Source: a virus
Virus record (IMG/VR): IMGVR_UViG_3300043444_000502
Location: 64,001-128,000 of that record
Strand: one strand, 5' to 3'
DNA length: 64,000 nucleotides
Below, piece after piece: positions 8,985 to 59,071 of this stretch. Position 1 is the first letter of the stretch; every line of letters begins with the position of its first letter. The translations under genes were made by a program, and so were the position numbers. The notes beneath the pieces were generated by a model that saw only the letters and a list, made by a program, of their open reading frames with translations, made no database searches and was not told the DNA's origin.

Positions 8985-8992
8985 TATAAATA
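8985..8992 (+). promoter_or_regulatory. T4-type late promoter box abutting a start codon
   Basis: Exact TATAAATA just after the preceding stop codon and only 6 bases before the ATG at 8999. Late transcripts begin about 6 bases after the box, so a transcript from here would have almost no leader. Confidence 0.5.
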
Positions 8993-9650: not shown

Positions 9651-10019
9651 ATGGCTCATGTAATTGGTGCTAGCGCTGAAGGTTTCGCGAACCTAGATGA
9701 AAGACCACGCTATTATTATGGTCTTCGTCGTGATGAGGAAGGTACACTTTGGTTGGGTAAAGCTGACCTAAAGGATCCTAATGATAACGTGCGTTTATAC
9801 GCACAACCTTTGACGCGTGATGGCGGTTTATCGCCTATTCCATTTCATGAGTTTTTTAATCAAAGAGAACTTTACGATACAGATGCTACTAACCCTGAAG
9901 AAGCATTATACTATCAGCAGTGGCGTATTGATAAAGTTAAAATTTCGTACTACATCGATGACAATGGCGAGTTTGTAGCATCAGTTGGTGCTGACAGAAC
10001 TTATCCAACAGATGTTTAA
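9651..10019 (+). CDS. Conserved-looking structural protein
   Basis: A 122-residue protein, rich in Tyr, Asp and Arg (RPRYYYGLRRDEEGTLWLG), preceded by GAGGATTTA. It lies between small structural genes and the very large S74 fibre. Its sequence is soluble and mixed alpha/beta. It probably belongs to the tail-fibre network; I cannot name the family. Confidence 0.6.
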   Translation: MAHVIGASAEGFANLDERPRYYYGLRRDEEGTLWLGKADLKDPNDNVRLYAQPLTRDGGLSPIPFHEFFNQRELYDTDATNPEEALYYQQWRIDKVKISYYIDDNGEFVASVGADRTYPTDV

Positions 10020-10053
10020 TAAATAAAAATCATATAAAGTAACGAGGACCAAT

Positions 10054-13000
10054 ATGGCAGAGTTTAAACTTGGTAGATTAAAGTTCTGGTGGAAAGGTGA
10101 GTGGCAAACAGGTCATGCTTACGTCAAAGATGATGTAGTTCGCTTTGGCGGTAAGTCATACGTTTGTATCGGCTCACACAATTCCGGAATTAACGATGAG
10201 AGCTTTTATACAGCTCTTGAAACAGCTCCTTTCAAATGGGAGTTAATGACTGATGGTATTCAGTGGCAAGGCGAATGGACAACAGGCACTTACTATAAAG
10301 AAGGTGATGTTGTTAAGTTTGGTTCTGACACATATATCTGCGTCGATGGAAATACAGCTTCTGCTGATTTCATGGCTGACCAAGATGCTGGTAATTGGGA
10401 AAACTTCGTTAATGGAGTTGAACTAGAAGGCGATTGGAATTCTTCACACAATTACCAAGTTGGTGATATCGTACGTTTAGGCGGTAATACATTTATTGCT
10501 AAGCGTGACAATACGAATGCAAAACCGACTGTTAGTACAGACGACTGGGGTGTATTCGTTCATGGTTTAAAGTGGAAAGGTCAATATGCTCCTACCACAA
10601 CATATTTCCCTGGTGATGTAGTTAAAGAAGGTTCTTCTTCATATGTAGCTATTGTAGAAACAATTGGAACTGCACCATCTACAGATTTAGCTAATACTAC
10701 ATGGAATGCAGTTGCTGAAGGCGACACATCTGATGTTTTAACTACAACAGGTGATATCGCTGTTTATGGCACAACAAATATTCAACGCTTACCTGCTGGC
10801 GCCGGTAATGCAGTTCTTCAAATTGATGCAGTTTCTGGTGTTCCTGCTTGGAAGCAAGATGTTGAAATTGCAGGCGATTTGATGGTACAAGGTGATGCAC
10901 ATGTTGTACAAGGCGACGTGTATCAAGGTCCAAATGCTCAAGATTATACACAAGACGTTGATATTTTCGATGTAACATCAGAAATTACTAGTGTTACAAA
11001 ATCGGCGACTCAAGTATTCATCTATTATGCTGTTGGTTCAGCATTAGCTAATGCTAATGGTGGTTATCATATCGATATGTCAGGTGTAGCTGATCCTAAC
11101 ACATTAATGAATTCATCATTCTCTGTTGATAGCAATAATACAACTAATCGTGTAATTACTATTACAGTCGCAGGTTTAACTGGAACTGGTACAGTTAATT
11201 TAACTGGTGCTACAGTTTCTTTATATGGTCCAAATGCATATGCAGGTATGACTGATGCATCTGGCGTATTCGTTGGTAATGCTGATTCATTTGTACAATT
11301 TGCTCTTAAGAATACAAATAACGGCACTGGTGCTTCTACTGACTTAATCGTTTATGCTGATAACGGTGATAATTCATCTGGTTGGATGGATATGGGTATC
11401 ACTTCATCACAATTCGATAATCCTGACTTTACAGTTACTGGTCCAAACGATGGTTATATTTTCATGTCTGCTCCTACTGGAACAGCAGGTAAAGGTGACT
11501 TGATTCTTGGTACTGGTGACGGTGGTCAACACAATGACATTGTAATGTTTACTGGTGGTTTTGATGCTGCTAACGTAAAGATGAGATTGATTGGTACAGC
11601 TCGTCCAGAAATTTCAGAATCAACAGGTATGCCAACTGGTCGTACAATCGAACCAGGCGTTGAAGTATATTTAACTTCAGTCGCAGAAAACTGGGATGAA
11701 GGTGCACTTCGTGTTGTTGGCGGTCTTGGTGTTCAAGGTAATATCATTACGAAGGGTGATCTTCGTGCTGAAATGGGTGTTATTTGCCAAGGTTCAAACG
11801 CTAAGAAATTAACAGAAGATGACTATGTTTACCCAGGTTATGTTGGTTTAACAAATCCTTCTGCAATTATGACAGGTAATGCAAACTCATTTGTACAAAT
11901 GTCATTGAAAAACTTTAGTACTGGCGATTTAGCTTCTACTGACTTAATTCTTTATTCTTCAGCCGGTGATAATAACTCTGGTTGGATCGATATGGGTATC
12001 TGTTCTGAGAACTATGATGATCCATCATTCGGTGTAACAGGTCCTGGTGACGGTTACATTTTTATGTCAGCTAAAGAAGGTTCTACAACTGAATTAGGTA
12101 ACTTATACGTTTCAACATCATCTAATGGTGTTCAAAATGATATCGTATTCTCAACTGGTGGTTTTGAAGATAGTTCGTATGAACGTATGCGCATTATTGG
12201 TTCAGCACGACCAGGCAAACAAGCTGGTGTTGAAATTTATTCTTCAACAAATTCAACAAGTACTACAACAGGTGCTTTACGTGTTAACGGTGGTATTGGT
12301 TTACAAGGTAACTTAAACGTTGGTGGTGATGTTAATATTAATGGTAACACAACTATCCAAGGTACAATTGTTATTGCCGGTGGTTCAACAACTGTTACAT
12401 CTCAAAACTTAGCTGTTCAAGATCCGATGATTTTCTGTGCAGACGGTAACTCTGCAGACATCGTTGATATGGGTGTTGTTGGTTCATATCGTCTTGCGCC
12501 AGATTCATACACAAGCGTTGATTTAGTAGGAGCTACATTTGCTGCTGCAGGAGAAACGCTATATATCACTAAAACTGCTCATGGTGCAACAAATTTAGAT
12601 CGTATGACTATTAGCAGTGCTAATAAAACTGAATATAATGGTACATACGAAACTATTACTATTGTAGACGCAAATACTATCACAGTACAAAAAATTGGCG
12701 CTACATGGAATGGTCCAGTTACAGCAACTGCAACATTAGGCGTATTTGTGAATGGTTTACGTTATGCAGGTTTAGTGCGTGATCACGTTGATGGTCGCTT
12801 TAAGTTATTCACTGCATATCAAGTTTCTAATAAACCTACAACTGTAATTAATCAAACTGATGCTCAAGATGCATTCTTAGAATTAGGTGCAATCAAAGTT
12901 ACTAATACTACAGCGTCATCAAGTTATACAACTGGTGCGGTAATTGTTAGTGGCGGCGTGGGTGTTTCTGGTGCGATGTATGTACAAAATGCATTATATT

Positions 13001-13329
13001 GCGGCAGCGATATTACAGCATGGTATTCATCTGATAGTCGCTTAAAAGATAATGTTAAACCTATTGAAGGCGCATTAGATAAGATTTCTAAAATTGGTGG
13101 TTATGAGTTCGACTGGAACGCAACTGCTAAAGAACAATTCCCAGATCGTGAAACACATGATATCGGTGTGATTGCTCAAGAAATTCAAGCAGTACAACCA
13201 GAAGTTGTTGTTGAACGTGATAACGGTTATTTAGCTGTTAACTATGAGAAGCTTGTTCCACTATTAATTCAAGGTATTAAGGAACTACAAGAGGAAGTTA
13301 AAGCTCTTCGTGCAAAAATTGGAGAATAA
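10054..13329 (+). CDS. Large tail fibre with S74 intramolecular chaperone
   Basis: A 1091-residue fibre. Residues about 10-210 hold four repeats of the form WKGEW...Y..GDVV.FGG..Y.C, like CBM5/12 chitin-type carbohydrate-binding modules. Residues about 390-560 and 600-740 are a diverged internal duplication (each with GWxDMGI and DGYIFMSA). A GALRVxGGxGxQGN block repeats near 550 and 745. The last 100 residues are a peptidase S74/endosialidase-type chaperone: SDSRLK places Ser993 and Lys998 five apart, matching the known Ser-Lys self-cleavage dyad, followed by IGVIAQE and a C-terminal coiled coil. Released after trimerisation in known examples. Good RBS (ACGAGG). Confidence 0.9.
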   Translation: MAEFKLGRLKFWWKGEWQTGHAYVKDDVVRFGGKSYVCIGSHNSGINDESFYTALETAPFKWELMTDGIQWQGEWTTGTYYKEGDVVKFGSDTYICVDGNTASADFMADQDAGNWENFVNGVELEGDWNSSHNYQVGDIVRLGGNTFIAKRDNTNAKPTVSTDDWGVFVHGLKWKGQYAPTTTYFPGDVVKEGSSSYVAIVETIGTAPSTDLANTTWNAVAEGDTSDVLTTTGDIAVYGTTNIQRLPAGAGNAVLQIDAVSGVPAWKQDVEIAGDLMVQGDAHVVQGDVYQGPNAQDYTQDVDIFDVTSEITSVTKSATQVFIYYAVGSALANANGGYHIDMSGVADPNTLMNSSFSVDSNNTTNRVITITVAGLTGTGTVNLTGATVSLYGPNAYAGMTDASGVFVGNADSFVQFALKNTNNGTGASTDLIVYADNGDNSSGWMDMGITSSQFDNPDFTVTGPNDGYIFMSAPTGTAGKGDLILGTGDGGQHNDIVMFTGGFDAANVKMRLIGTARPEISESTGMPTGRTIEPGVEVYLTSVAENWDEGALRVVGGLGVQGNIITKGDLRAEMGVICQGSNAKKLTEDDYVYPGYVGLTNPSAIMTGNANSFVQMSLKNFSTGDLASTDLILYSSAGDNNSGWIDMGICSENYDDPSFGVTGPGDGYIFMSAKEGSTTELGNLYVSTSSNGVQNDIVFSTGGFEDSSYERMRIIGSARPGKQAGVEIYSSTNSTSTTTGALRVNGGIGLQGNLNVGGDVNINGNTTIQGTIVIAGGSTTVTSQNLAVQDPMIFCADGNSADIVDMGVVGSYRLAPDSYTSVDLVGATFAAAGETLYITKTAHGATNLDRMTISSANKTEYNGTYETITIVDANTITVQKIGATWNGPVTATATLGVFVNGLRYAGLVRDHVDGRFKLFTAYQVSNKPTTVINQTDAQDAFLELGAIKVTNTTASSSYTTGAVIVSGGVGVSGAMYVQNALYCGSDITAWYSSDSRLKDNVKPIEGALDKISKIGGYEFDWNATAKEQFPDRETHDIGVIAQEIQAVQPEVVVERDNGYLAVNYEKLVPLLIQGIKELQEEVKALRAKIGE

Positions 13330-13335
13330 TACAAA

Positions 13336-14007
13336 ATGGCAACACGTTTAACACAGACCGGTATCGAATATCCAGACGGTACCGTTCAAATTCAACGCTT
13401 TGATGGCAATGATGATCGTGGCGGTCTTTTACAGATCGCTACGTATACTGGTAGTAGTACGTGGTACAAACCTGATGGAGCACGTCAAATTCGTGTTCTA
13501 GTTATTGGTGGCGGTGGCGGTGGTTGCGGTCACACAGAATCTGGTGGTGCAGGTGGTTTTGCTGAAAAATGGATTGATGTTTCTAGTTGGGCAAATGGTA
13601 CTGCTGTTACTGTAACATGTGGTGGTGCTGGAGATGGTAGAAACTATTTCCAAGGTTGTGGTAATGGCGGAACATCTTCTTTCGGTGGATATTGTTCAGC
13701 TTCTGGTGGTCATGGTGCTAACACACAATGGGGTCATACAGGAGGAACAGGCGGTGTAGGTTCCGGCGGAGATATCAACCTTAGAGGTGGCGGTGGCCAT
13801 GGCCATGATAATGAAGCTGCTTCTCAAGGTGGTACAGGTTATTTTGGTGGCGGTTCATTTGGTAACCACCACAGTTATCGCCCTCACTATGCTGAAGGCA
13901 CAAACCATAATGCACCCGGTGGTGGTGGAGCTGGTAACTGGATTACTAATCACGGTCGCGGAGCATATGGTTCTGACGGTGCTGTCATCGTTTATAGCTA
14001 CGCATAA
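13336..14007 (+). CDS. Glycine-rich adhesin, copy 1 of 3
   Basis: A 223-residue protein. The N-terminus has a TxxGIEYPDGTVQ motif, then a strand-rich part (TWYKPDGARQIRVLVIGGGG), then about 130 residues of Gly-rich loops with His, Cys, Asn and aromatics, and a last strand (GAVIVYSYA). Such polyglycine loop domains form receptor-binding tips in T-even gp38-like adhesins and other phage fibres. It follows the large fibre by 6 bases and is the first of three tandem paralogues of nearly equal length. Confidence 0.8.
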   Translation: MATRLTQTGIEYPDGTVQIQRFDGNDDRGGLLQIATYTGSSTWYKPDGARQIRVLVIGGGGGGCGHTESGGAGGFAEKWIDVSSWANGTAVTVTCGGAGDGRNYFQGCGNGGTSSFGGYCSASGGHGANTQWGHTGGTGGVGSGGDINLRGGGGHGHDNEAASQGGTGYFGGGSFGNHHSYRPHYAEGTNHNAPGGGGAGNWITNHGRGAYGSDGAVIVYSYA

Positions 14008-14019
14008 GGAAAAAGATTT

Positions 14020-14685
14020 ATGTCTATTAAATTAGGTCAAGCAGGTGTAGTATATCCAGATGGCGTAGCACAATCAACTAAATATGATACTTCGCTAGAT
14101 AGAGGTAAGGTTATTAGAGTTGACTTCTGGACTAGTAATGCTACGTGGAATAAACCAGCGGGTTGCAGAAAAATTTTCGTACAAGTAATTGGCGGCGGTG
14201 GTGGCGGTTGTGGCCACTGTGAAGCTGGTGGTGCTGGCGGTTATGCAGAAAAATTAATCGATGTTACTGGTATAGATAGTGTATCAGTAACAGTTGGTGG
14301 TGGTGGAGATGGTCGTAACTATCATCAAGGTTGCGGTGGCGGCGGTACAACATCATTTGGATCATATCTATCAGCATCTGGTGGTAATGGTGCAAATACT
14401 TGGGGTTCTCATACTGGCGGTCATGGCGGTGTAGGTTCTGGTGGTGACGTTAATTTACACGGCGGCGGAGGTCGTTCACATGGTGATCAAGGCCAATCTA
14501 AAGGTGGCGAAGGTTATTTTGGTGGAGCTAGTGCATCAGGACATCATGGCGGCAATTTCTACTCACACTACGCCGAAGGTTTAAATCATTGTCCTCCAGG
14601 TACAGGAGGTTCAGGAGAGTGGACATCACATTCTCGTGGTGCGTATGGTGTACAAGGTTGCTGTATCGTATATAATTATTCTTAA
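14020..14685 (+). CDS. Glycine-rich adhesin, copy 2 of 3
   Basis: A 221-residue paralogue of the preceding protein, with the same plan: YPDGVAQ near the N-terminus, TWNKPAGCRKIFVQVIGGGG, a long Gly/His/Ser-rich loop domain and a closing strand (CCIVYNYS). The frame blocks are well kept while the loops between them differ, as expected if loop variation tunes receptor recognition. Spacing of 12 bases on each side shows co-translation. Confidence 0.8.
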   Translation: MSIKLGQAGVVYPDGVAQSTKYDTSLDRGKVIRVDFWTSNATWNKPAGCRKIFVQVIGGGGGGCGHCEAGGAGGYAEKLIDVTGIDSVSVTVGGGGDGRNYHQGCGGGGTTSFGSYLSASGGNGANTWGSHTGGHGGVGSGGDVNLHGGGGRSHGDQGQSKGGEGYFGGASASGHHGGNFYSHYAEGLNHCPPGTGGSGEWTSHSRGAYGVQGCCIVYNYS

Positions 14686-14697
14686 GAAGATAAAGTT

Positions 14698-15360
14698 ATG
14701 TCAGTAAAATTAGGTCAAACAAATATTACGTACCCAGACGGTACTACGCAAGCAGCTAAATATACATCTGCAGATGATAAAGGTAATTTACTAAGTATTC
14801 AATCATGGACTAGTAATGGTACATGGACAAAACAAGCTGGTGTAAGAAGCATTCGTGTTATGTTAGTTGGTGGCGGTGGTGGTGGATCTGGTCATGGTCA
14901 ATCTGGTGGTGCTGGCGGTTATTCTGAAAAAAGAATCGACGTATCATCTTGGGCTGATGGCACTACAGTAAGCGTCACAATTGGTGATGAAGGCGGTGGC
15001 GCACATTCAAATAACTCAGGCGGTCAAGGTGGCACAACATCATTTGGTTCATATTTGTCTGCAACAGGTGGTCGAGGCGCTAATCAAGATTGGGGTCATT
15101 GCGGTGGTCATGGTGGCGTAGGTTCTGGCGGCGACATCAATCTTCGTGGTGGTGGTGCATCAGGACATGATAACCGCGGAGGTCGCGGTGGTGCATCATT
15201 CTTCGGCGGTTCTAAATTCTCAGGTTGGCCAAATCACCATTTCTCACATCAACATGAAGGACATGTTCCTCCAGGTGCTGGTGGGTGTGGTGAACACGTT
15301 AATCATTCGCGCGGTGCGCATGGTGCAAGAGGTATCTGTATCGTATATAACTATAGTTAA
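14698..15360 (+). CDS. Glycine-rich adhesin, copy 3 of 3
   Basis: A 220-residue third paralogue (YPDGTTQ, TWTKQAGVRSIRVMLVGGGG, GSGGDINLRGGG, ICIVYNYS). It shares blocks with both others; the GVGSGGD[IV]NL block is common to all three. The Gly-rich loops are the variable part. It ends the adhesin cluster 30 bases before the halogenase gene. Confidence 0.8.
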   Translation: MSVKLGQTNITYPDGTTQAAKYTSADDKGNLLSIQSWTSNGTWTKQAGVRSIRVMLVGGGGGGSGHGQSGGAGGYSEKRIDVSSWADGTTVSVTIGDEGGGAHSNNSGGQGGTTSFGSYLSATGGRGANQDWGHCGGHGGVGSGGDINLRGGGASGHDNRGGRGGASFFGGSKFSGWPNHHFSHQHEGHVPPGAGGCGEHVNHSRGAHGARGICIVYNYS

Positions 15361-15390: not shown

Positions 15391-17013
15391 ATGCAAGTTA
15401 AAAGTGTCTTAATTGTTGGTGGTGGTAGTTCAGGATGGATGACAGCTGCAGCGATTAAAAAACAATTGCCACATATTGATATTACATTAGTTGAATCTGA
15501 TAAAGTTCCAACTATTGGAGTGGGCGAATCAACAATTGGTCAAATCAACAGTTTTATGATGGCTGTTGGTTTAAAAGATAAAGATCATGAATGGATGCCT
15601 AAATGTAATGCTACATATAAAACATCCATTAGATTTACAGATTTCAGAGAAAAAAATGAAAAGCCTAATACTTTTCATTATCCATTTGGAATATTTGATT
15701 TAACTGACAAAGAACGTGGTGCGATGGATTGGTTCTATATGCAATTAGACGATCCATCTATTCCTCCAGAAAATTTTGCTGAATTTTATCATGATCACGT
15801 TATCATGGCAAATCAGATGAAATTTACTGATAACAAAGATCATGAAATTAGAATGTTTAATTTTAAGTTTGATACTGCATATCATATGGATGCAGCGTTA
15901 TTTGGACAATACTTAAAAAATAATATTTGTATTCCTGAAGGTGTTAAACATATTGTTGATGATGTTACAGGAGTAATTCAAAATGAAGATGGTTATGTAA
16001 CTGGTGTTACAACGGTAACAAATGGTGTATTAAAAGCTGACCTATTTGTTGATTGTACTGGTTTTAAATCTATGTTATTAGAAGGTGCTATGGGAGCAGA
16101 GTTTGTTTCTTTCCATGACACGCTAATGAATGATAGTGCAATTGCTACAATTATTCCATATCTAGACAAAGATAAAGAAATGTCTAGTGTAACAAACTGT
16201 ACAGCAATTGATGCTGGTTGGGTTTGGAATATTCCATTATATAATCGAATCGGCACAGGTTATGTGTATTCTTCAAAGTTTGCAACTAAAGAAGAAGCTG
16301 AAGCACAATTTAGAAAACATTTGGCTTCAGATAGAATGGATTATGTCGATGAACGTTCTAAAGAACGTGCTGAACAAGCAGAATTTAGACATATTAAAAT
16401 TAAACATGGATGTCATAGACGTTCTTGGATTAAAAACGTAGTAGGTGTTGGTTTAGCTAATGGGTTTATTGAACCATTAGAATCCACTGGTCTTATGTTA
16501 ACGCATGAAGCAATTATGAAATTAATTGATGTGTTAGACATGAGAGATGGCTATGTAAATCAATATGATATTGATACATTCAATTTTACAATGTTTGATC
16601 AAGTAAATGGATTTAAAGAATTTATTTCTTTACATTATACTCTTTCTAAGAGAAATGATACTCCATATTGGAAACATGTAACTGAAGGTTTTACATATTC
16701 CAATGAAATGATTGAATGGAAACCTAAAATTAGAAATCCATATACAGATTTAGCATATAGAAATTTAGTAAATCACACATATGGTCCAGATCAGGGCGGT
16801 TTAATTTATATTGCAGCTGGTCATGGTTATAATCCATTATCTAAGCGTTGGATTGATGATGAAGCTCAACGCATTAATATAAATATGGGATATGATATAA
16901 AGAAAACTAGGAAGTTGTGGGAAGATCACGTTAAAGAGTTACAAATAACTTTAGACAAACTTCCGACACATTATCAATGGTTAAAACAAAATTATTACAA
17001 TAATCAGGAGTAA
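15391..17013 (+). CDS. Flavin-dependent halogenase (tryptophan-halogenase family)
   Basis: A 540-residue protein with every hallmark of flavin-dependent halogenases (PF04820). These are the FAD-binding GGGSSG at 10-15, the WxWxIP motif as WVWNIP at 277-282, a lysine at 77 in the position of PrnA Lys79, and FIEPLESTG at 359-367 near the chloride/flavin site. These enzymes use FADH2, O2 and halide to make HOX, which passes through a tunnel to the lysine. Its length equals tryptophan 7-halogenases. No flavin reductase gene is visible, so reduced flavin probably comes from the host. A related cyanophage enzyme (VirX1) has been characterised. Substrate unknown. Confidence 0.9.
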   Translation: MQVKSVLIVGGGSSGWMTAAAIKKQLPHIDITLVESDKVPTIGVGESTIGQINSFMMAVGLKDKDHEWMPKCNATYKTSIRFTDFREKNEKPNTFHYPFGIFDLTDKERGAMDWFYMQLDDPSIPPENFAEFYHDHVIMANQMKFTDNKDHEIRMFNFKFDTAYHMDAALFGQYLKNNICIPEGVKHIVDDVTGVIQNEDGYVTGVTTVTNGVLKADLFVDCTGFKSMLLEGAMGAEFVSFHDTLMNDSAIATIIPYLDKDKEMSSVTNCTAIDAGWVWNIPLYNRIGTGYVYSSKFATKEEAEAQFRKHLASDRMDYVDERSKERAEQAEFRHIKIKHGCHRRSWIKNVVGVGLANGFIEPLESTGLMLTHEAIMKLIDVLDMRDGYVNQYDIDTFNFTMFDQVNGFKEFISLHYTLSKRNDTPYWKHVTEGFTYSNEMIEWKPKIRNPYTDLAYRNLVNHTYGPDQGGLIYIAAGHGYNPLSKRWIDDEAQRININMGYDIKKTRKLWEDHVKELQITLDKLPTHYQWLKQNYYNNQE

Positions 17014-17018
17014 TAAAC

Positions 17019-17546
17019 GTGGCAAAATATGCTTTATTTTTAAAAGATGAACCAATTTCACAAGATGGTTTAAAGCGCATTCATGAAGTAGTTAATTCTG
17101 CAGAAGAATGTTTTGAAGTACATGAATCATTTGAGTGGGTACAATGTCCAAATCAAGTATTAAACCGTGATTGGAAATTTAACACACAAACAAATTCTTG
17201 GGTTGAACCGGCTATTCCAGTAACAGAATATGGTATTGCGCGCAGAGTGCATTATGGAGAAGTTGGTGCTCAATTAGATCGCATTTTTCACGCAACTCAA
17301 GCTGGAGCAACTGATCCTCTTGGTGAATGGGCTGCAGAACAAGAAAAAATTAAAGCTGTATTTCCAAAAGATAATGCAGCATACACAAATGAATCTAATG
17401 CAGAAATCGTACGTCGCTGTAATGCTATTTTAGAAGAAGCAGAACGCGAAACTGGTGTTTTTGGCAAATATATCGATATGCGTCAAATGGCATTAGATTT
17501 ATACGATGATATTCAAGCTGGTCGTTGGGTTAATCCAGCAGCTTAA
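17019..17546 (+). CDS. Tail-assembly-chaperone-like protein
   Basis: A 175-residue protein that begins at a GTG with a strong AGGAG 8 bases before it; no nearby ATG fits as well. The centre has RRVHYGEVGAQLDRIFHA, resembling the R..Y...G.QLD motif of small phage tail-fibre assembly/XkdW-like proteins. The rest is helical and soluble. It follows the halogenase by 5 bases and is closed by a strong terminator. A role in fibre assembly is plausible; partnership with the halogenase is only inferred from spacing. Confidence 0.6.
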   Translation: MAKYALFLKDEPISQDGLKRIHEVVNSAEECFEVHESFEWVQCPNQVLNRDWKFNTQTNSWVEPAIPVTEYGIARRVHYGEVGAQLDRIFHATQAGATDPLGEWAAEQEKIKAVFPKDNAAYTNESNAEIVRRCNAILEEAERETGVFGKYIDMRQMALDLYDDIQAGRWVNPAA

Positions 17547-17570
17547 GCTTCAAAAATTTAAAGCATATAT

Positions 17571-17596
17571 AAAGGGAGATTCGATCTCCCTTTATC
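17571..17596 (+). terminator. Rho-independent terminator
   Basis: AAAGGGAGAT, a TCG loop, then ATCTCCCTTT form a perfect 10-bp stem ending in a short T run. It lies 25 bases after the stop of the gene ending at 17546 and before the next unit. Confidence 0.85.
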
Positions 17597-17614: not shown

Positions 17615-18907
17615 ATGAACTTTGACAAAATTATATCTTTTGGATATCCACAATTTACTGAACAACCGCATTTATATTACACGTATTTAAAAAATGCACA
17701 TCCAAGATATCGTGCTGAAATTCGTGATTTATATTTTTCAGTACCATACAAATATAAATGGAATGGTCATGATTTTATGTATGGTGACGTTATGGCTGCA
17801 TCATCTGATGATAGACATTTTGAATATATGTTAAAAATTCAAAATGAATTTGGAATTGCTCTATCATTAACGTTTAACGAAACATATCCAAATAAAGAAT
17901 TATGCGGTGATAAAGATGTATTAAATGGATTTATTAATCATATTGGTAAATTCTATGAAATGGGTATTAGATCGTGTACAATATCACACGTACACATGAT
18001 GGCTATGGGTATTTTGCAAAAAAACTTTCCAGAAATGAAATGGAAAAATACAGTTAATCATATCATTACTAAACCCCAACAAGTAGTTGACATGTATACA
18101 TTGGGTTATGATGTTATTAATTTAGATCGTTCATTAAATCGCGATATGGATGCTTTAAAAGCAATTCAACCGCTGCGTAAAAAATATCCTGAAATGGAAC
18201 TGAGTTTACTAGTTACAGAAGGATGCATGCCACACTGTCCATTTAAAGTAGAACATGATACCATGAATAAAGAACCTGGTTATCAATATTGGCATAATCA
18301 TGGTAATGTTTCATGCGGGATTTGGAGAAATGTTGAAACAAATGAATTGCCTAGAATTGGCACTGATATGATTTGGGGCGATAAAGAAACTTTTTATGCA
18401 TATGCTGAAATGGTAGATTATTTTAAATTTTCAGGTAGAATGGGAAAACTTCCAGATAATGCAGATGCTGAAAATGATAAATTCGTTTGGTCGATGGTTC
18501 AACCAAAATCAAAAAGGCGTTATACTTACAATCCGTGGTTTTTAAATCATTTAGATCAAGGCACATACGCAACGGCAGATTGTCTACAAGATGTCATTGA
18601 GAATGATTTAGGTCCAATTAGTCCAACATGGGAATTTGGAAGATTTATTAATAAAACACATGATTGTAAAACCACATGGAATTCAATCAATGCATTAAAT
18701 GATGGTAACGTGTGGGCTACCAAAAAGGGTAAAGCTTTAAATCATGTTTTAAAAAATTGTAAAAATGAATGTTGGGATTGCCATGCATGTGAAAGAACGT
18801 TTGGAAGTAAAGATTTTGATTCTCTAATTGAAATCGATAGAGATGTTTCTGTTTTACAAGGTAATTTAGAACATTTTAAAGGCATTCCAATTATCAAGCA
18901 ATTATAA
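17615..18907 (+). CDS. U32-like TIM-barrel Fe-S protein
   Basis: A 430-residue protein. The order of strands and helices (residues 85-200) with NTVNHIITKPQQVVDMYTLG, then INLDRSLNRD, then LSLLVTEGCMPHCPF resembles the TIM barrel of the U32 'peptidase' family (TrhP, RlhA, UbiU/UbiV). Members of that family bind an Fe-S cluster and take part in hydroxylation of RNA or quinones. Cysteines near 200-230 (EGCMPHC, SCG) and a C-terminal group (CKNECWDCHAC) could hold clusters. It stands alone between a terminator and a late promoter. The family call is tentative. Confidence 0.5.
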   Translation: MNFDKIISFGYPQFTEQPHLYYTYLKNAHPRYRAEIRDLYFSVPYKYKWNGHDFMYGDVMAASSDDRHFEYMLKIQNEFGIALSLTFNETYPNKELCGDKDVLNGFINHIGKFYEMGIRSCTISHVHMMAMGILQKNFPEMKWKNTVNHIITKPQQVVDMYTLGYDVINLDRSLNRDMDALKAIQPLRKKYPEMELSLLVTEGCMPHCPFKVEHDTMNKEPGYQYWHNHGNVSCGIWRNVETNELPRIGTDMIWGDKETFYAYAEMVDYFKFSGRMGKLPDNADAENDKFVWSMVQPKSKRRYTYNPWFLNHLDQGTYATADCLQDVIENDLGPISPTWEFGRFINKTHDCKTTWNSINALNDGNVWATKKGKALNHVLKNCKNECWDCHACERTFGSKDFDSLIEIDRDVSVLQGNLEHFKGIPIIKQL

Positions 18908-18910
18908 ATA
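18903..18910 (+). promoter_or_regulatory. T4-type late promoter box
   Basis: Exact TATAAATA overlapping the preceding stop codon, 32 bases before the ATG at 18942. The leader then carries an AT-rich inverted repeat (AAATAGAT at 18906-18913, ATCTATTT at 18923-18930). Confidence 0.7.
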
Positions 18911-19364: not shown

Positions 19365-20707
19365 GCATAACAAAAAAGTTCTGTGAAGTAGAAGAAGGTT
19401 TAGTAGTAGGTAATGTTACTATCGATGGAGATGGTAGTATTCAACTTACTGGAACAGTTTCCGCAAATTCAATTCAAACAACAAGTGGTGTATTAATTCA
19501 TGCTTCTGGAAATATGGATATTCCAGGTGAAGTCACAATTGATGACTTAACAACATTACACTCATTGCACGTTTTAAACAATACTGAAGTAGATGGTTCT
19601 CTTAGTGTGTTAGATAACGCACACATTTCAGGAGATTTAACTGTCAATGGTATTGTTACAACAAATTCTTCATTTAATCTCTTAAATAAAACTGTTAATA
19701 TAGTTAATTTTGGTGGAGAGGCATCGCAAATTAATATTGGTGCAACTGGTGATAATTGGGTTAAAACAAATTCAAATTTAGAAGTTAGTCGCAATTTAAC
19801 AGTAGGTTATCAATTTGAAGTTGCTGAAGGTAAATTCCAAATTGATGGTACATTTGGAGATCAAGGTGCAACACGTCTTCAAGGTATTTTAGAAGTTGGC
19901 CAAGATGCAACATTCGAATCTGGTTTAGAAGTTCAAGGATTAACATATTTAACCGGTTTATTTAATGTCAATGATAAATTCACAGTAGATCAATTAACTG
20001 GTAATACTGTTGTTTATGGTACACAAAATGTTAAAGGCGCAGTTGATTTAGATTCAACATTAAACGTCGATGGCAATACAATATTAAATGGTACACAAAA
20101 TGTTAAAGGCGCAGTTGATTTAGATTCAACATTAAACGTTGATGGAACAGTAAACATTGAAGGTGCTACTGTTATTGATGACACTCTTCAAGTTACAGGC
20201 GCAGTAGATTTTGACAATAATCTTAATGTAGATGGCACGTTAAATGTAGAAGGCGCTACTACAATTGATGATACATTAAATGTCACTGGCAATACAGATG
20301 TAGACGGTACACTAAATGTTGACGGTAATGTAACACTTCAAGGTACTCTTGAAGTTGATGGAATTTTATATGGATTTTCAGAAGTTCATGATGCTAAAGG
20401 TGAAGTTCGTTTAGTACCACAGAATGAACAAGCATCATCATATACTTTAGTTGCATCTGATCATGGTAAACATATTCTTGCATCAAACACTGTAACCGTT
20501 CCTGGTAATGTATTTTCTGCAGGTCAAACTGTTGTTGTAATTAATTGGACTAGCGGAAATATTACATTATCACAAGGTGCTAGTATGACAATGTATCAAG
20601 TCGGTACATCTAACACTGGTAATAGAACTATTGCACAACGCGGTTTAGTAACATTATTTTTTATTAATGCAACTAATTGTATCGTATCAGGTTCTGGATT
20701 AAGTTAA
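19361..20707 (+). CDS. Tail fibre with repeated beta units
   Basis: A 448-residue fibre. Residues about 30-340 consist of short units of the form LNVDGxxxxxGxxxxDxT, typical of a trimeric triple-beta-helix shaft. Residues 220-340 show the strictest repeat, including two nearly identical 24-residue units. The last 100 residues look globular and Thr/Ser/Asn-rich (SGNITLSQGASM, NRTIAQRGLVTLFFIN). No S74 domain is visible. Overlaps the genes on both sides. Confidence 0.82.
   Translation: MSITKKFCEVEEGLVVGNVTIDGDGSIQLTGTVSANSIQTTSGVLIHASGNMDIPGEVTIDDLTTLHSLHVLNNTEVDGSLSVLDNAHISGDLTVNGIVTTNSSFNLLNKTVNIVNFGGEASQINIGATGDNWVKTNSNLEVSRNLTVGYQFEVAEGKFQIDGTFGDQGATRLQGILEVGQDATFESGLEVQGLTYLTGLFNVNDKFTVDQLTGNTVVYGTQNVKGAVDLDSTLNVDGNTILNGTQNVKGAVDLDSTLNVDGTVNIEGATVIDDTLQVTGAVDFDNNLNVDGTLNVEGATTIDDTLNVTGNTDVDGTLNVDGNVTLQGTLEVDGILYGFSEVHDAKGEVRLVPQNEQASSYTLVASDHGKHILASNTVTVPGNVFSAGQTVVVINWTSGNITLSQGASMTMYQVGTSNTGNRTIAQRGLVTLFFINATNCIVSGSGLS
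20018..20145 (+). repeat. 72-bp-period direct repeat in fibre gene
   Basis: A 56-base unit (20018-20073) returns at 20090-20145 with one silent C/T change. The period is 72 bases, 24 codons. It encodes GTQNVKGAVDLDSTLNVDG twice and is the freshest part of a longer degenerate repeat array. Confidence 0.9.
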
Positions 20708-21636
20708 TGACAATTTATGCAACGATTGGTAGTGGTGGTCAATATAAACCAGTTGTAGCTTCTGGTGGAAGTGAATTTTCATTTACGTGGAATGGAGATC
20801 AATATAAAGGTCATTCATACACATATACCGGTGGTGCACAATCGCTTGTAGTATCTGATGCTGGTGATGATAAAGTAGTTCATTGCATTCTTTGGGGTGC
20901 TGGTGGTGGTGCTGGTGGTCAAAGCGGAAATTCAGGCGGTGGTGGTGGATGTGTTCGACTAATGAATATATCAGTTTCCAATTCTGAAACGCTTAACATC
21001 TCTGTTGGTGGTGGCGGAGGCAATGGTTCAGGTTGTTGTGGTTCATGCGGAGCAGGTAGTAGCGGCGGTGGACCGATCATAGGTCGTGGTGGTCATGGTT
21101 ATTCTTCAGGCGGCGGTGGTTGTTCTGCTGGCGGTGGAGGTGGAGGTGGCGGAACATTTTTACTTCGCTCAAATAATTCTGTAATTTGCGCTGCTGGTGG
21201 CGGCGGAGGCGGCGGTGGTTCTGAAGGATGTGGTGGCGCTGGAAGAGGCGGATCTGGTGGTGGATCAGGTGAAAATGGCGGCAATAGTGCTTGGGGCGGT
21301 GGAGCAGGTCAAGCTGGTGGACAAGGCGATGGTAGTTATAATGGCGGAGATGGATGGAATCCTGGTGGAGATCAATCTGGTCCTGGAGGCGGTGGCGGTG
21401 GTTATGCTGGTGGCACTATGGGTTATGTTGATAATGGTGGAGACTGTCATGGAAAATCTGGTGGCGGGGGTGGAAGAGGTTATCCATCAAGCGCAGTTGA
21501 ATATTTAACATCATATAGCACATCTGCTGCTAATTCAAGCGATGGTACATTTTCTAGTTGGCGTAGTTCATATGGTGATGCTAACGGCACAGGCGGTAAA
21601 TTAGTTGTATTCTATAGAATTAAAAAAGGTTTATAA
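20707..21636 (+). CDS. Glycine-rich tail protein
   Basis: A 309-residue protein. I chose the ATG at 20707, which overlaps the previous stop (TAATG); the upstream frame lies inside that gene. After a short N-terminus (about 70 residues) come roughly 180 residues of Gly-rich sequence with blocks of six or seven Gly, several Cys (GCCGSCG) and Ser, then a last strand (GGKLVVFYRIKKG). The plan resembles the three adhesins at 13336-15360 but without the YPDG start, so it is a separate receptor-binding or tip candidate. Confidence 0.75.
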   Translation: MTIYATIGSGGQYKPVVASGGSEFSFTWNGDQYKGHSYTYTGGAQSLVVSDAGDDKVVHCILWGAGGGAGGQSGNSGGGGGCVRLMNISVSNSETLNISVGGGGGNGSGCCGSCGAGSSGGGPIIGRGGHGYSSGGGGCSAGGGGGGGGTFLLRSNNSVICAAGGGGGGGGSEGCGGAGRGGSGGGSGENGGNSAWGGGAGQAGGQGDGSYNGGDGWNPGGDQSGPGGGGGGYAGGTMGYVDNGGDCHGKSGGGGGRGYPSSAVEYLTSYSTSAANSSDGTFSSWRSSYGDANGTGGKLVVFYRIKKGL

Positions 21637-22287: not shown

Positions 22288-22725
22288 ATGAACGAATTAA
22301 TTAAAAAACTCCGTGAAGTATTAGCATCTAATTTTGCTTTATACTTAAAAACTCAAATGTTTCATTGGAACATCGAAGGTCCAAATTTTAATGATTATCA
22401 TGCATTTTGGGCAACTGTGTATACAGATCTATATGAACAAAATGATTTAATTGCGGAATATATTAGACAAGCAAATGAATATGCTCCAGGTTCATTAGAT
22501 GTTTATAAACAATTATCTGTTATTGATGACGAAGATGGATTTCCAAAATCTGTAGAAATGTTTAATAAATTCTTGAGCAATAATGATTCAATGATTACAT
22601 TATATAATCAACTATATGAACTAGCAGAGAAGAATGAAGAATATCAAATTTCAGACTTTTGTGCACAAAGATTAGCAGCACATAAAAAACACGCATGGAT
22701 GGTTCGTTCTATCCTTAAGGATTAA
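22288..22725 (+). CDS. dps: Dps-like ferritin
   Basis: A 145-residue four-helix ferritin-like protein. His26, His38, Asp53 and Glu57 have the same spacing (12, 15, 4) as the ferroxidase ligands of Dps proteins, inside FHWNIEG and NDLIAEYIR. Dps dodecamers oxidise and store iron and protect DNA from peroxide. The gene is 4 bases upstream of neck gene 13 in the late region, so it may be made late or packaged. The presence of many Fe enzymes in this phage makes an iron-handling role attractive, as an inference. Confidence 0.9.
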   Translation: MNELIKKLREVLASNFALYLKTQMFHWNIEGPNFNDYHAFWATVYTDLYEQNDLIAEYIRQANEYAPGSLDVYKQLSVIDDEDGFPKSVEMFNKFLSNNDSMITLYNQLYELAEKNEEYQISDFCAQRLAAHKKHAWMVRSILKD

Positions 22726-29686: not shown

Positions 29687-29694
29687 TATAAATA
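29687..29694 (+). promoter_or_regulatory. T4-type late promoter box, proximal, gene 18
   Basis: Second exact TATAAATA, 21 bases after the first. Twin late promoters fit the high demand for sheath and tube proteins. Confidence 0.72.
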
Positions 29695-37824: not shown

Positions 37825-38274
37825 ATGCTAACTCTTGAACAAATTTTAGAACAGTGGAAAAAAGATTGCGAGATCGATGATATGGAACTCGACAAATCTT
37901 CACGTGAAACACCAAAACTACATGCAAAATATATTGAACTATTATCATTAGCTAAACTACAAAAGCAACGTAAAGATATGGAATTTAAACGCTTGCTAAA
38001 AGATAAATTCATGTGGTATAACGGTAAAATGGACAAAAATACAATGGATGAAAAAGGTTGGGAATACGATCCATTTGGTGGACTAATTAAACCGTTAAAG
38101 AGTGATATGGATTATTTTTATGAAAGTGATCCACAAATTCAAGCGCTTCAATCTCAAATTGAATATTGGAAGACTATGATAGATACTATATCAGAGATTG
38201 TTTCTAATATTACATGGAGACATCAAACTATTTCAAATATGATTAAGTGGCGACAGTTCACTTCAGGCGTATGA
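37825..38274 (+). CDS. uvsY: UvsY recombination mediator
   Basis: A 149-residue homologue of T4 UvsY (137 residues), which loads UvsX recombinase on gp32-coated single-stranded DNA. The helical layout, a KDKFMWYNGKMDK block and the QALQSQIEYWKTMIDTISEI region match the family. It starts behind a sigma70-like promoter and overlaps the next gene by 4 bases. UvsX itself is not in this window. Confidence 0.88.
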   Translation: MLTLEQILEQWKKDCEIDDMELDKSSRETPKLHAKYIELLSLAKLQKQRKDMEFKRLLKDKFMWYNGKMDKNTMDEKGWEYDPFGGLIKPLKSDMDYFYESDPQIQALQSQIEYWKTMIDTISEIVSNITWRHQTISNMIKWRQFTSGV

Positions 38275-38924
38275 TACCTACAATTGTTATTGATAATTTT
38301 TTCCCTCAACCAGATAATGTGCGAAATTATGCATTATCACTTAAAGAATGGCATGCTGATGAAGAGTTGAGATGGCCAGGAATTCGTACTAATAGTTTAC
38401 ATACCTTTGCGTTAGATAAACATGCAGAATTAGTATGGTCTATCTACAATTGTTTACCTCGTCATTTAGCTATGAAATATGGTTCATTTAAAAAATTTGA
38501 TGCGATGTTTCAAATTGTTAGCGAAGATTATATTGATGGTTGGATTCATGATGATGGTGCAGATTTAGATTTTGCGGGTTTAATTTACTTAAATAAAAAT
38601 CCGTGCGATGATAGCGGAACTTCAATATATCACCATATAACTGATGAATTAGAATATTTTGGTGAAGAAGAACGAGAACTAAAGAAAAAATTTCTATCTA
38701 AACCAGAACACCGCAGAGATTACGATTTATTAAAAAATAATAGACATTCACAGTTTAAAGAAGTTACTAAAATAGAAAATGTGTACAATAGATGTATCAT
38801 TTATGATGCATATGCTTGGCATAGAGCGAATAAATATTTTGGTAAAACAAAGGAAGATTCTAGATTGACACTAGTATTCTTCGGTAAATTTGATGATGGA
38901 CAAACTAACAATATCCAAAGTTAA
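38271..38924 (+). CDS. 2OG-Fe(II) oxygenase-like protein (DUF6445-like)
   Basis: A 217-residue protein. I chose the ATG at 38271 (ATGA overlap with uvsY). The iron site is visible as WIHDDG (His then Asp) and the distal WHRANKYFG, with Arg in SRLTLVFFG for 2-oxoglutarate. It resembles the DUF6445 group of small dioxygenase-like proteins. It sits between uvsY and uvsW, two recombination genes, and overlaps uvsW, so it is co-expressed early or middle. Substrate unknown. Confidence 0.72.
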   Translation: MIPTIVIDNFFPQPDNVRNYALSLKEWHADEELRWPGIRTNSLHTFALDKHAELVWSIYNCLPRHLAMKYGSFKKFDAMFQIVSEDYIDGWIHDDGADLDFAGLIYLNKNPCDDSGTSIYHHITDELEYFGEEERELKKKFLSKPEHRRDYDLLKNNRHSQFKEVTKIENVYNRCIIYDAYAWHRANKYFGKTKEDSRLTLVFFGKFDDGQTNNIQS

Positions 38925-40790: not shown

Positions 40791-41420
40791 ATGGAATTTG
40801 AACATTATTTTCACGAATTAAAATCACCTGGATATATCACGGCTAAAGTGCCTGCAGAAATTATGCGAGTATTTGATAATGCAGTGAATGATGTAAAGCT
40901 AAACGGCGGTCAAGATATGGCACATAGATTAGCTGGTCATCTCGATAATCAAATCAATTTGATGAATAGAAAAGATTGTGTTGACGCTATCACGCCATTT
41001 GTATATGACTTAGCTCGTTTATATGATATGCGCTTTGATTATATGCGTAGATTTCAAACGCGTGAAGATGATCAATTGCTATATCTACAAGCGCTATGGT
41101 TAAATTTGCAAAAGAAACATGAATTCAATCCATTGCATAAACATGGTGGTGTATATTCATTTGCTATATGGCATACTATTCCATATGATATTAATGATGA
41201 AATAAATATGTTTAAGACAAAACATAGTAAAGCATCTTGCTTTGAATTTGGATATGTTGATGCGTTAGGTTTGCAACAATTTGAAACTATACCAGTCAAT
41301 AAATCGTATGAAGGTGTAATATGTTTCTTTCCAGCAGTACTTCATCACGGCGTATATCCATTCTTTACTAGTGATGACTATAGAATAAGTATTGCTGGTA
41401 ACTTATACTTTAAATCATAA
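40791..41420 (+). CDS. 2OG-Fe(II) oxygenase-like protein
   Basis: A 209-residue protein with FNPLHKHGGVYSFAIWH (metal-site His pair in the HxH style) and a distal AVLHHGVYPF followed by YRISIAGNL, where Arg would hold 2-oxoglutarate. Marine T4-like phages often carry this type. It follows the Sm-like gene by 9 bases and ends the uvsY-uvsW unit. Confidence 0.75.
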   Translation: MEFEHYFHELKSPGYITAKVPAEIMRVFDNAVNDVKLNGGQDMAHRLAGHLDNQINLMNRKDCVDAITPFVYDLARLYDMRFDYMRRFQTREDDQLLYLQALWLNLQKKHEFNPLHKHGGVYSFAIWHTIPYDINDEINMFKTKHSKASCFEFGYVDALGLQQFETIPVNKSYEGVICFFPAVLHHGVYPFFTSDDYRISIAGNLYFKS

Positions 41421-53993: not shown

Positions 53994-54575
53994 ATGATCG
54001 TAAGAAAATTAAAAAGCACTAAAGATAAAGAATTAGTTAAACTACATTTATATAGTTTAACTGGTGAAGATCGTCGCCTTAGATTTGGATCTATGGTTAG
54101 TGATACGTATATTAGAGATTATGTTGATTTATCTTGGAATGATGAAAAAAACCAATGGTTTGGTTGTATTGTAAATGGTGCATTAGTTTCCGCATGCCAC
54201 GTAGCCATATATAATAATGAGGGCGAACTCGGATGTTCAGTCGATAAAAACTATCGAGGACATGGATTAGCTCAAGAAATGTTTGATAGAGCTGTTACAT
54301 ATCTACGTACGCAAAATATTAAAGAAGTCTATATGCATTGTTTGACAGAAAATCAGGCAATGAGACACATTGCAAAAAAGCATGACATGGTAGTTGTTAG
54401 TTGTGATGGAGAAACAGACGCTAAAGTCAAGGTTGAACCACCCACTCCGCTTACCATTTATAAAGATGCATACTTAGATCGTGTAGCAATCTACGACATG
54501 GTTATCAGAACACATTCTGAAATCTATGAAAGATGGCTAAACGCGTTTAGGTATGAGCGGAAAAAAGAAATATAA
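53994..54575 (+). CDS. GNAT-family N-acetyltransferase
   Basis: A 193-residue protein with the GNAT acetyl-CoA motif RGHGLA at 88-93, preceded by the beta-4 strand (ELGCSVDKNY) and followed by QEMFDRAVTYL. The C-terminal 60 residues are family-specific. Target unknown; possible substrates are proteins, sugars or small molecules. It overlaps the next gene by 23 bases. Confidence 0.83.
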   Translation: MIVRKLKSTKDKELVKLHLYSLTGEDRRLRFGSMVSDTYIRDYVDLSWNDEKNQWFGCIVNGALVSACHVAIYNNEGELGCSVDKNYRGHGLAQEMFDRAVTYLRTQNIKEVYMHCLTENQAMRHIAKKHDMVVVSCDGETDAKVKVEPPTPLTIYKDAYLDRVAIYDMVIRTHSEIYERWLNAFRYERKKEI

Positions 54576-54756
54576 AATAGTCTCTATGGACACTGTCTTG
54601 CTAGGTGAATGGCAAATAAAAGCTAGTCAAATGGCAGGACAAATATTATTGCTGATGTATAATCAGCATACCCATGAATTTGTTATTCAATATGTCGATG
54701 ACATAAAGAAAGCAAATATTATAGTTGAATATGTGATTGAAAAAGGAACATTATGA
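54553..54756 (+). CDS. Small hypothetical protein
   Basis: A 67-residue protein, basic at the start (SGKKKYKIVS) and beta-like after. It overlaps the acetyltransferase and the Sm-like gene (ATGA). No family recognised; the context implies co-translation with both. Confidence 0.6.
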   Translation: MSGKKKYKIVSMDTVLLGEWQIKASQMAGQILLLMYNQHTHEFVIQYVDDIKKANIIVEYVIEKGTL

Positions 54757-55037
54757 TTAAATGCATTCAGTTAGTAAATGGCCACGATATTATTGGTGAT
54801 ATTGAAGAACATGGTCCTCACTACATTGTAAAAGAACCTGCAGCAATTCATTTAGTACCGCAACAAGGTACATCATTTGGAGTAGGTTTAATTCCATTTA
54901 TGCCATACAGCGAAAGCAATAAAATCGCAGTCGTTAAAGATAAAGTTGTGATTGAATTTGAACCTTCGATTGAGATGCGCAATAATTACAGCAAATTATT
55001 TGGTGCAGGAATCCAAATCGCTAATGTTATGCCTTAA
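54753..55037 (+). CDS. Sm-like fold protein
   Basis: A 94-residue protein beginning MIKCIQLVNGHDIIGDIEE, with VKEPAAIHLVPQ and VVIEFEPS later, the strand pattern of an Lsm-type domain. It resembles the N-terminal part of the protein at 40371 (shared QLVNG/KLVNG start). It could bind RNA; untested. It ends just before the DNA polymerase promoter. Confidence 0.65.
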   Translation: MIKCIQLVNGHDIIGDIEEHGPHYIVKEPAAIHLVPQQGTSFGVGLIPFMPYSESNKIAVVKDKVVIEFEPSIEMRNNYSKLFGAGIQIANVMP

Positions 55038-55044
55038 AAACTAG

Positions 55045-55073
55045 TTTACTTTTTAATCTAGTTGTGGTATAAT
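55045..55073 (+). promoter_or_regulatory. Sigma70-like promoter, DNA polymerase
   Basis: TTTACT, 17 bases, TATAAT with TGTGG. The expected start of transcription, 7 bases after the box, is the A of the ATG at 55080. Confidence 0.82.
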
Positions 55074-55079
55074 ATAGCT

Positions 55080-57596: not shown

Positions 57597-59071
57597 ACAC
57601 TAGAATTAAAAAAATGATTATTGTAGGAGGCGGTACAGCTGGTTTAGTTGCTGCCATTATTCACAAACGCCTAAATCCCACTATTGAGATTCAAGTTTTA
57701 GAATCATCAGAGATTGGAATTATCGGCGTTGGAGAAGGTAGCACAGAACATTGGAATATGTTTATTGACCAATGCAATCTAAGTCGTGCAGAAGTGATGA
57801 AAGAATGTGCTGCTACCATTAAAACTGGCATTAAGTTTGTAAATTGGAATGGCAAAGGTGATGACGACGTGTATTTTCATTCAGTGATTGGACCATATGA
57901 TTCAGTGTTCATCAATGGAGTGTTTTCATATTGGACTAATGCATTAGTTACAGGTAAGTCATCAGTTGAAATGACATCGCCTAGAATTCCTGTAAGTATG
58001 TTCCAAAAGGGTGATGGTCCAGGAACTAATCAATATCATTTCGATACCTTTAAACTTAATCAATATTTGCATAAAGTAGCAAAGGAACGTGGTGTTATAT
58101 TTACCGATGCAATAGTCAATGAAGTAAAATTAAAAGAAAACGGTTATGTAAAATCTTTAATTGATAATGCTGGAAATGAATACGTAGCAGATTTTTTCAT
58201 CGATGCTAGTGGATTTAATAGAGTTATCATGAATAAACTAGGAGCAAAATGGATTGATTGCAAAAAGTATTTGCCAATGAATCATGCAATTGCTTTCCCT
58301 ACAGAATATCAAGAAGATATTGACGCATTTACGACTGCACACGCTAGAAATGCAGGTTGGTCATGGCGTATTCCAACTCAAGAACGATTTGGTAATGGAT
58401 ACGTTTTCTGTGATGATTATATCACAAAAGAACAAGCACACGCAGAAATGGAACAAATCTTTGGTAGATCTATTGAAATCGGCCGAGATATTAAATTTGG
58501 TGCAGGTCATGTGGATAGACCGATGATTAATAACTGTACTGCTATTGGTTTAGCTGGCGTTTTCGTTGAACCACTTGAAGCTTCTAGTATTGGTGCAACT
58601 ATTCAACAGTGTTTTGCGTTATCAACATCATTGCAAATGTATGAAGAAGGTAATAAAACATTAGAGAATATTCATAACAAGCAAATGCTTAAAATGTTCT
58701 CAAATATTATTGACTACATTCAAATTCATTATTTTACAAAGCGTGATGATACAGCATTTTGGAAAGATAAACCGTTTGAAATTACAGAATTTAATAAAGA
58801 AACTATTGATACAATGAAACGTTCATTGCCTTCTATTCATTATTTCCAAGATCCATATCTTATGTTTAGACATGTAAATTGGTTTATGACTATGGAAGGA
58901 TTAAAGTTATTTGACATTGAAGAAATTAAGCGTATTCACGCTGAACAACCACCACAGGCTTGGGAAGAAGTGAATACATTTTTTGATAACGCAACTATCG
59001 CATTTAGAGAAGGTGCAAAAAACAAACACCGCGATCAATTGCAAGATATCATGAGCGGTATGTACAATTAA
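57593..59071 (+). CDS. Flavin-dependent halogenase, second copy
   Basis: A 492-residue protein of the tryptophan-halogenase family. GGGTAG at 12-17 for FAD, Lys77 in the PrnA Lys79 position, WxWxIP as WSWRIP at 256-261, and FVEPLEASS at 324-332. It is diverged from the halogenase at 15391 and shorter by 48 residues, so the substrates probably differ. Its ATG overlaps the stop of DNA polymerase (ATGA), which ties its translation to polymerase. Substrate unknown. Confidence 0.9.
   Translation: MNTRIKKMIIVGGGTAGLVAAIIHKRLNPTIEIQVLESSEIGIIGVGEGSTEHWNMFIDQCNLSRAEVMKECAATIKTGIKFVNWNGKGDDDVYFHSVIGPYDSVFINGVFSYWTNALVTGKSSVEMTSPRIPVSMFQKGDGPGTNQYHFDTFKLNQYLHKVAKERGVIFTDAIVNEVKLKENGYVKSLIDNAGNEYVADFFIDASGFNRVIMNKLGAKWIDCKKYLPMNHAIAFPTEYQEDIDAFTTAHARNAGWSWRIPTQERFGNGYVFCDDYITKEQAHAEMEQIFGRSIEIGRDIKFGAGHVDRPMINNCTAIGLAGVFVEPLEASSIGATIQQCFALSTSLQMYEEGNKTLENIHNKQMLKMFSNIIDYIQIHYFTKRDDTAFWKDKPFEITEFNKETIDTMKRSLPSIHYFQDPYLMFRHVNWFMTMEGLKLFDIEEIKRIHAEQPPQAWEEVNTFFDNATIAFREGAKNKHRDQLQDIMSGMYN

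Follow-up and report, generated by a model that had tools for sequence, protein, structure and literature searches.

A VirX1-type halogenase encoded among tail-tip adhesin genes of a T4-like phage probably decorates the phage's own receptor-binding tip

The DNA analysed here (the window, 64,000 nucleotides) is part of a 167.6-kb virus record, and its open reading frames read as T4-like gene content. Reading frames were called by program and given their labels by phmmer (1e-5). A tail-fibre gene immediately precedes three glycine-rich adhesin genes, which stop 30 bases upstream of a halogenase gene (Hal1); a small gene begins 5 bases past the end of Hal1. The features are:

10054-13329, + strand: tail-fibre protein, 1091 aa, with CBM_5_12 repeats and a C-terminal Peptidase_S74 chaperone (PF13884, PF02839, phrog_8215 and several tail-fibre PHROGs)
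13336-14007, + strand: glycine-rich adhesin 1, 223 aa, 28% Gly (PF21722, phrog_863; in adhesin alignments A3 and A6)
14020-14685, + strand: glycine-rich adhesin 2, 221 aa, whose model matches the Pam3 fibre 7ypx
14698-15360, + strand: glycine-rich adhesin 3, 220 aa (PF21722, phrog_863)
15391-17013, + strand: VirX1-type flavin-dependent halogenase, Hal1 (PF04820, phrog_2928, match to 6qgm, catalytic residues kept)
17019-17546, + strand: small cassette gene, 175 aa, probable adhesin chaperone (phrog_1787; homologue between adhesin and halogenase in relatives)
17569-17595, listed by the scan for the - strand: terminator-like 12-bp hairpin, lying past the small gene and ahead of the U32-like gene
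17615-18907, + strand: U32-family-like protein, 430 aa (model match to 5d88; invariant Glu and Cys)
57593-59071, + strand: second, divergent flavin-dependent halogenase, Hal2, 492 aa (PF04820, 308 bits; separate phage clade)

The initial annotation had placed the halogenase directly after adhesins, and the three genes preceding it are indeed glycine-rich adhesin genes. Hairpin-type sites such as that at 17569-17595 are no commoner in the region than in shuffles. The motif ATAAATA occurs at 19 sites in the window, all on the + strand, a total below chance expectation for both strands; it often lies just ahead of gene starts (e.g. 8986-8992, 10019-10025, 18904-18910 and 29688-29694), with one site just 5' of the fibre gene at 10054, and it resembles T4 late promoters. 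Given these + strand sites, the cassette is likely to be transcribed late, with the virion genes. Sites of TATAAATA number 12 against 10.9 expected by chance, all on the + strand.

Hal1 starts with ATG and encodes 540 aa. It matches Pfam PF04820 (Trp_halogenase) with 362.5 bits and PHROG 2928 with 495.7 bits, which bears out its original designation as a flavin halogenase, and the family hallmarks reported as intact are all in place: GGGSSG at residues 10-15, Lys77, WVWNIP at 277-282 and FIEPLESTG at 359-367. Among 113 phage relatives, G10, G12, G15, E46, K77, W277 and E361 are invariant (113/113) and E364 is kept in 112. Comparison with a 90%-identical homologue in the relative L017 gives a dN of 0.067 and a dS of 1.01 (dN/dS ~0.07), a low ratio that indicates strong purifying selection and a reading frame that is not a chance one. 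On these sequence features, Hal1 is a real gene for an intact flavin-dependent halogenase. The reductase said to be missing is missing from what we have: no PF01613 flavin reductase was found in the 167.6-kb record, which is possibly incomplete. Nor was psbA found in the record.

The nearest solved relative of Hal1 in phmmer searches is VirX1 of cyanophage Syn10 (PDB 6qgm; 482 bits, ~45% identity over the full length), for which halogenation in vitro, with a preference for iodide, and many small-molecule substrates are described (PMC8407142). The phylogeny that had been proposed as a check on this relationship agrees with it: in a FastTree analysis, Hal1 and VirX1 fall in one phage-only clade of 82 rows (local support 99), whereas PrnA, PyrH and Th-Hal cluster with bacterial sequences, apart from that clade. 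Hal1 and VirX1 also share all catalytic residues. The VirX1 gene of Syn10 likewise lies within a cassette of adhesin, small gene, halogenase and 2OG genes; there it follows the small gene as the second of a tandem pair, whereas Hal1 is single and precedes the small gene. The first genes of such tandem halogenase pairs form a separate clade, every member of which is adhesin-linked. PrnA, PyrH and Th-Hal have in common with Hal1 the Pfam family, the flavin motif, the active-site Lys and Glu and WxWxIP, but Hal1 stands without a biosynthetic cluster. Further, its local alignments to the tryptophan halogenases are weaker and end near residues 429-456, whereas the VirX1 alignment reaches 539; on these local alignments, Hal1 shows no recognisable counterpart of the part of those enzymes that binds free Trp.

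The adhesins belong, by structural prediction, to a known kind of phage tip protein. Adhesin 2, modelled at a pLDDT of 87.9, matches the Pam3 fibre 7ypx (Z 20.9, rmsd 2.3, 179 residues) and, with a Z of 15, the tail tip of Bxb1; the window adhesin is thus predicted to have the TNF-like plus glycine-rich domain fold of the Pam3 gp24 / S16 gp38 kind. Pam3 gp24/gp25 and the window are alike in adhesin fold, glycine-rich domain and a small gene beside the fibre, but Pam3 has a single fibre protein whose N-terminus is alpha-helical, whereas the window carries three tandem adhesin copies. Receptor binding in Pam3 is proposed to occur through distal loops of the glycine-rich domain, fibre assembly requires the small chaperone gp25, and the solved fibre, of the same fold as the adhesin, is described without modification (PMC9608196). 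By analogy of position with gp25 beside gp24 (PMC9608196), the small gene at 17019-17546 is probably an adhesin chaperone. Pfam and PDB searches with it returned no match, including none to Pam3 gp25. The earlier description called this gene tail-chaperone-like; it is homologous to the small gene beside the adhesins of relatives, and the chaperone role itself is our reading.

For the U32-like protein at 17615-18907, a model of low confidence (pLDDT only 67) matches the U32 peptidase Mk0906 (5d88) with a Z of 14.8, the next row having 11.6, and residues E202, C204, C208, C234, C382, C386, C389 and C392 are invariant; a Pfam search with this protein gave no U32 match. The U32 proteins TrhP and RlhA are tied to prephenate-dependent RNA hydroxylation (PMC6599085). 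They resemble the U32-like protein in its predicted fold and in a similar kind of conserved Glu/Cys pattern, but they hydroxylate RNA using prephenate. A U32-like protein fused to a methyltransferase domain (PF13578) occurs at L092:15105-16796 and L097:1-1233, adjoining halogenases and 2OG genes.

We examined the cassette in relatives from both ends. A single-sequence scan of viral contigs yielded only seven loci, and we therefore used an alignment as the query, which gave a halogenase-anchored set of 80 IMG/VR loci; an independent adhesin-anchored set added 75 new loci. Both sets converge on one cassette in which glycine-rich adhesins, two to four in tandem, are accompanied by a homologue of the small gene 17019-17546, by one to three halogenases, often by a U32-like gene, and by runs of 2OG-Fe(II) oxygenases and a JmjC_2 (PF08007) protein. 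A halogenase is present in 69 of the 75 adhesin-anchored loci, and the remaining six are on contigs that stop directly past the adhesins, so that all scorable loci (69/69) carry one. For each query we took the 80 most similar loci, which do not form a random sample (~280 more distant adhesin stretches lie outside the set), and since the records also share ancestry, the counts do not represent independent events.

Linkage is kept while gene order varies. At least ten orders occur, two of them inverted (L098 and L100), with a median gap of 597 bp. The order adhesin-halogenase-small gene is found in the window and four loci; others are adhesin-small gene-halogenase, adhesin-small gene-U32-halogenase, adhesin-small gene-U32-2OG-halogenase and arrangements with tandem halogenases. 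Where at least 4 kb of upstream sequence is available, an adhesin lies within 6 kb of 59 of 65 VirX1-clade halogenases; five of the six without a nearby adhesin have 2OG genes within 2 kb, and L092 has LamG lectins nearby. Whole records holding both genes place them less than 5 kb apart in 16 of 17 cases, and per-record random-placement tests combine to ~1e-8, a value that overstates the case, as these records share ancestry and were selected by their possession of a halogenase. In S-B64, the halogenase is far apart from a distant adhesin. Some halogenase/2OG arrays (L060:15745-18647, L093:13815-16638 and L067:2703-4489) have no glycine-rich adhesin and adjoin a small gene and three paralogues in tandem that are of different kinds, a few of them matching tail-fibre or TNF families weakly; possibly these follow the same logic with other tip proteins. 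Several genes labelled 'DNA endonuclease V' or 'ferrochelatase' match the cassette 2OG-Fe(II) oxygenases by phmmer (L005:10303-10938 and L005:11607-12200), and similar genes occur in cyanophage records L006, L007, L010, L011 and L013, one with a PF13640 match; judged by sequence, these labels look wrong.

Phage isolates give the same picture. The adhesin family was found in 20 of 50,697 isolate records by BLAST, whose low-complexity filter may miss glycine-rich adhesins, and all 20 carry a VirX1-clade halogenase. A low-stringency search of the isolates for adhesin relatives without a halogenase returned short partial matches only. In S-CREM1, one of two adhesins (L004:5832-6629 = 54494-55291) has five internal stops and so looks interrupted. 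Sister isolates of S-RIM44 exchange the whole block between flanks that are ~96% identical, with the fibre genes replaced along with the cassette. Isolate Np_42_0711 carries three adhesins, the small gene, two halogenases and an oxygenase run between tail fibre and gp13, and Np_05_0604 has genes of 294 and 121 aa and a single 2OG oxygenase at the same site; neither adhesin nor VirX1-clade halogenase was found in Np_05_0604 by either search. In Sf-CH11, the S-RIM44 cassette position holds halogenase and 2OG genes adjoining a different tip protein and a LamG protein.

The initial annotation had asked whether the substrate is a virion Trp/Tyr or a host metabolite. Linkage in 69/69 loci, co-occurrence in 20/20 isolate records, the S-RIM44 swap and linkage that persists through varied gene orders together favour a virion adhesin, and the site of Hal1 between adhesin and small gene points to the adhesin itself as the target. 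The enzyme therefore probably acts on the receptor-binding tip of the phage itself and not on host metabolism, and we regard halogenation of this tip, accompanied in relatives by hydroxylation, as the best explanation, at somewhat better than an even chance. As to the residue, Trp is rare in the adhesin family, at 1% of residues. Among 82 linked adhesins, Tyr101 is conserved in 80 and His131 and His154 in all 82 (82/82 each); these three are candidates only for halogenation, and their conservation could be structural.

In this tailoring scheme, Hal1 would be active and co-produced with the adhesins of the tail tip and the probable chaperone. With FADH2 from a flavin reductase of the host, Hal1 would form hypohalous acid from O2 and halide, which would reach Lys77 via the usual tunnel. 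Aromatic side chains of the glycine-rich adhesin may then be halogenated, either ahead of tail-fibre assembly or in its course. The 2OG-Fe(II) oxygenases, the JmjC_2 protein and the U32-family protein of related phages would work on the same tip. The cassette would thereby chemically diversify or harden the receptor-binding tip and be exchanged with it as a unit.

Several observations besides linkage count for tailoring of the tip: the full-length homology of Hal1 to VirX1, active according to the literature, with all catalytic residues; partners (JmjC_2 and 2OG-Fe(II) oxygenases) from families that modify proteins; the receptor-binding Pam3 fibre fold predicted for the adhesin; and the lack of a recognisable free-Trp-binding region in the local alignments of Hal1. 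Against it, no modified adhesin peptide is known, the linkage fits the adhesin, a host receptor or another protein of the locus alike, VirX1 accepts many small molecules in vitro, the Pam3 fibre, which has that fold, is described without modification, and the two genes are separated in S-B64. The cassette is present in both S-SZBM1 and S-CREM1. The S-SZBM1 virion proteome search excluded halogen masses and allowed oxidation of Met only; the S-CREM1 virion proteome comprises 14 proteins. No precedent for tailoring of tail fibres by halogenases or 2OG oxygenases was found in the literature, where our coverage of subscription papers is incomplete.

Papers on phage halogenases treat them as auxiliary metabolic genes or as antibiotic protection, and published annotations prefer pyrrolnitrin-like protection or altered host metabolites; those we found, in an incomplete coverage of the literature, make no mention of the adhesin link. 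Applied to Hal1, such a role would mean that a host small molecule (tryptophan, indole or an antibiotic precursor) is halogenated and the infected cell protected or redirected, as the many small aromatic substrates of VirX1 would allow. However, the neighbourhoods that we read hold no further biosynthesis gene of such a pathway, similarity to the tryptophan halogenases ends before the C-terminal part, and a metabolic role gives no reason for obligate linkage to one adhesin family or for the S-RIM44 swap. We consider it unlikely. A slightly lower probability attaches to modification of the host receptor, the closest rival in kind, whereby halogenase and oxygenases alter the surface structure bound by the adhesin, preventing superinfection or freeing progeny. 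The enzymes would travel with the adhesin because their specificities must match, and linkage and co-swap are accounted for equally well. Nevertheless, protein hydroxylase families (JmjC_2) are among those cassette partners whose type of target is known, we noticed neither an exporter nor a glycan enzyme in the cassette, and the site between adhesin and small gene points at the adhesin.

A shade less probable again is that Hal1 keeps the halogenase fold but catalyses hydroxylation, or that its target is a different virion protein, for instance the product of the fibre gene at 10054-13329. Hydroxylase families are abundant in the cassette and fibre genes swap with it, but the halogenase marks K77, E364 and WxWxIP are retained and VirX1 itself halogenates. 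More improbable still is the absence of any functional link, with the tail-tip region an insertion hot spot in which adhesin and halogenase are merely co-inherited. Wholesale exchange of the region between sister phages and the shared ancestry of the records fit a hot spot; it also predicts many halogenase-free adhesin loci, whereas there are none among 69 scorable loci, and linkage is retained although order is shuffled.

MibH-type halogenases tailor ribosomal natural-product peptides. The cassette resembles such systems in that the gene for a ribosomally made substrate adjoins those for a flavin halogenase and further tailoring enzymes, but the proposed substrate here is a folded virion protein, and no leader peptide, protease or exporter was noted. 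In the broader proposal, to which we give rather less than an even chance, the folded glycine-rich tail-tip adhesin of T4-like phages is halogenated and hydroxylated by the enzymes of an exchangeable cassette, so that host recognition would use post-translationally made side chains; if it is true, the cassette is an enzymatic extension of the receptor-binding alphabet. Phage halogenases have so far been classed with auxiliary metabolic genes, and VirX1 has been studied for biocatalysis, with no natural substrate known for it. Should the adhesin be the substrate, VirX1 would acquire a role in nature, the numerous cyanophage 2OG oxygenases would be explained, and receptor-binding proteins would prove to be chemically tailored, which bears on host range and on proteomics searches that disallow such masses.

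The window encodes a second halogenase, Hal2, additional to the one originally listed. It directly follows the DNA polymerase gene gp43, with a 4-base overlap with the gp43 end, and thus lies outside the window cassette. It has EPLEASS where Hal1 has EPLESTG, and Leu for Trp at position 16. It belongs to another phage clade, with EPLEA replacing EPLES, and in other phages several of its relatives are found within islands of adhesin or 2OG genes. Elsewhere in the window, a reading frame at 20677-21636 (319 aa, 34% glycine, TTG start) matches no Pfam or PHROG family and is perhaps a further glycine-rich tip protein; a ferritin-like (Dps-like) gene at 22288-22725 lies between the tail-tip region and the neck genes; and a DUF6445 protein (38247-38924) and a 2OG-FeII_Oxy_5 oxygenase (40791-41420) are encoded at a distance from the cassette.
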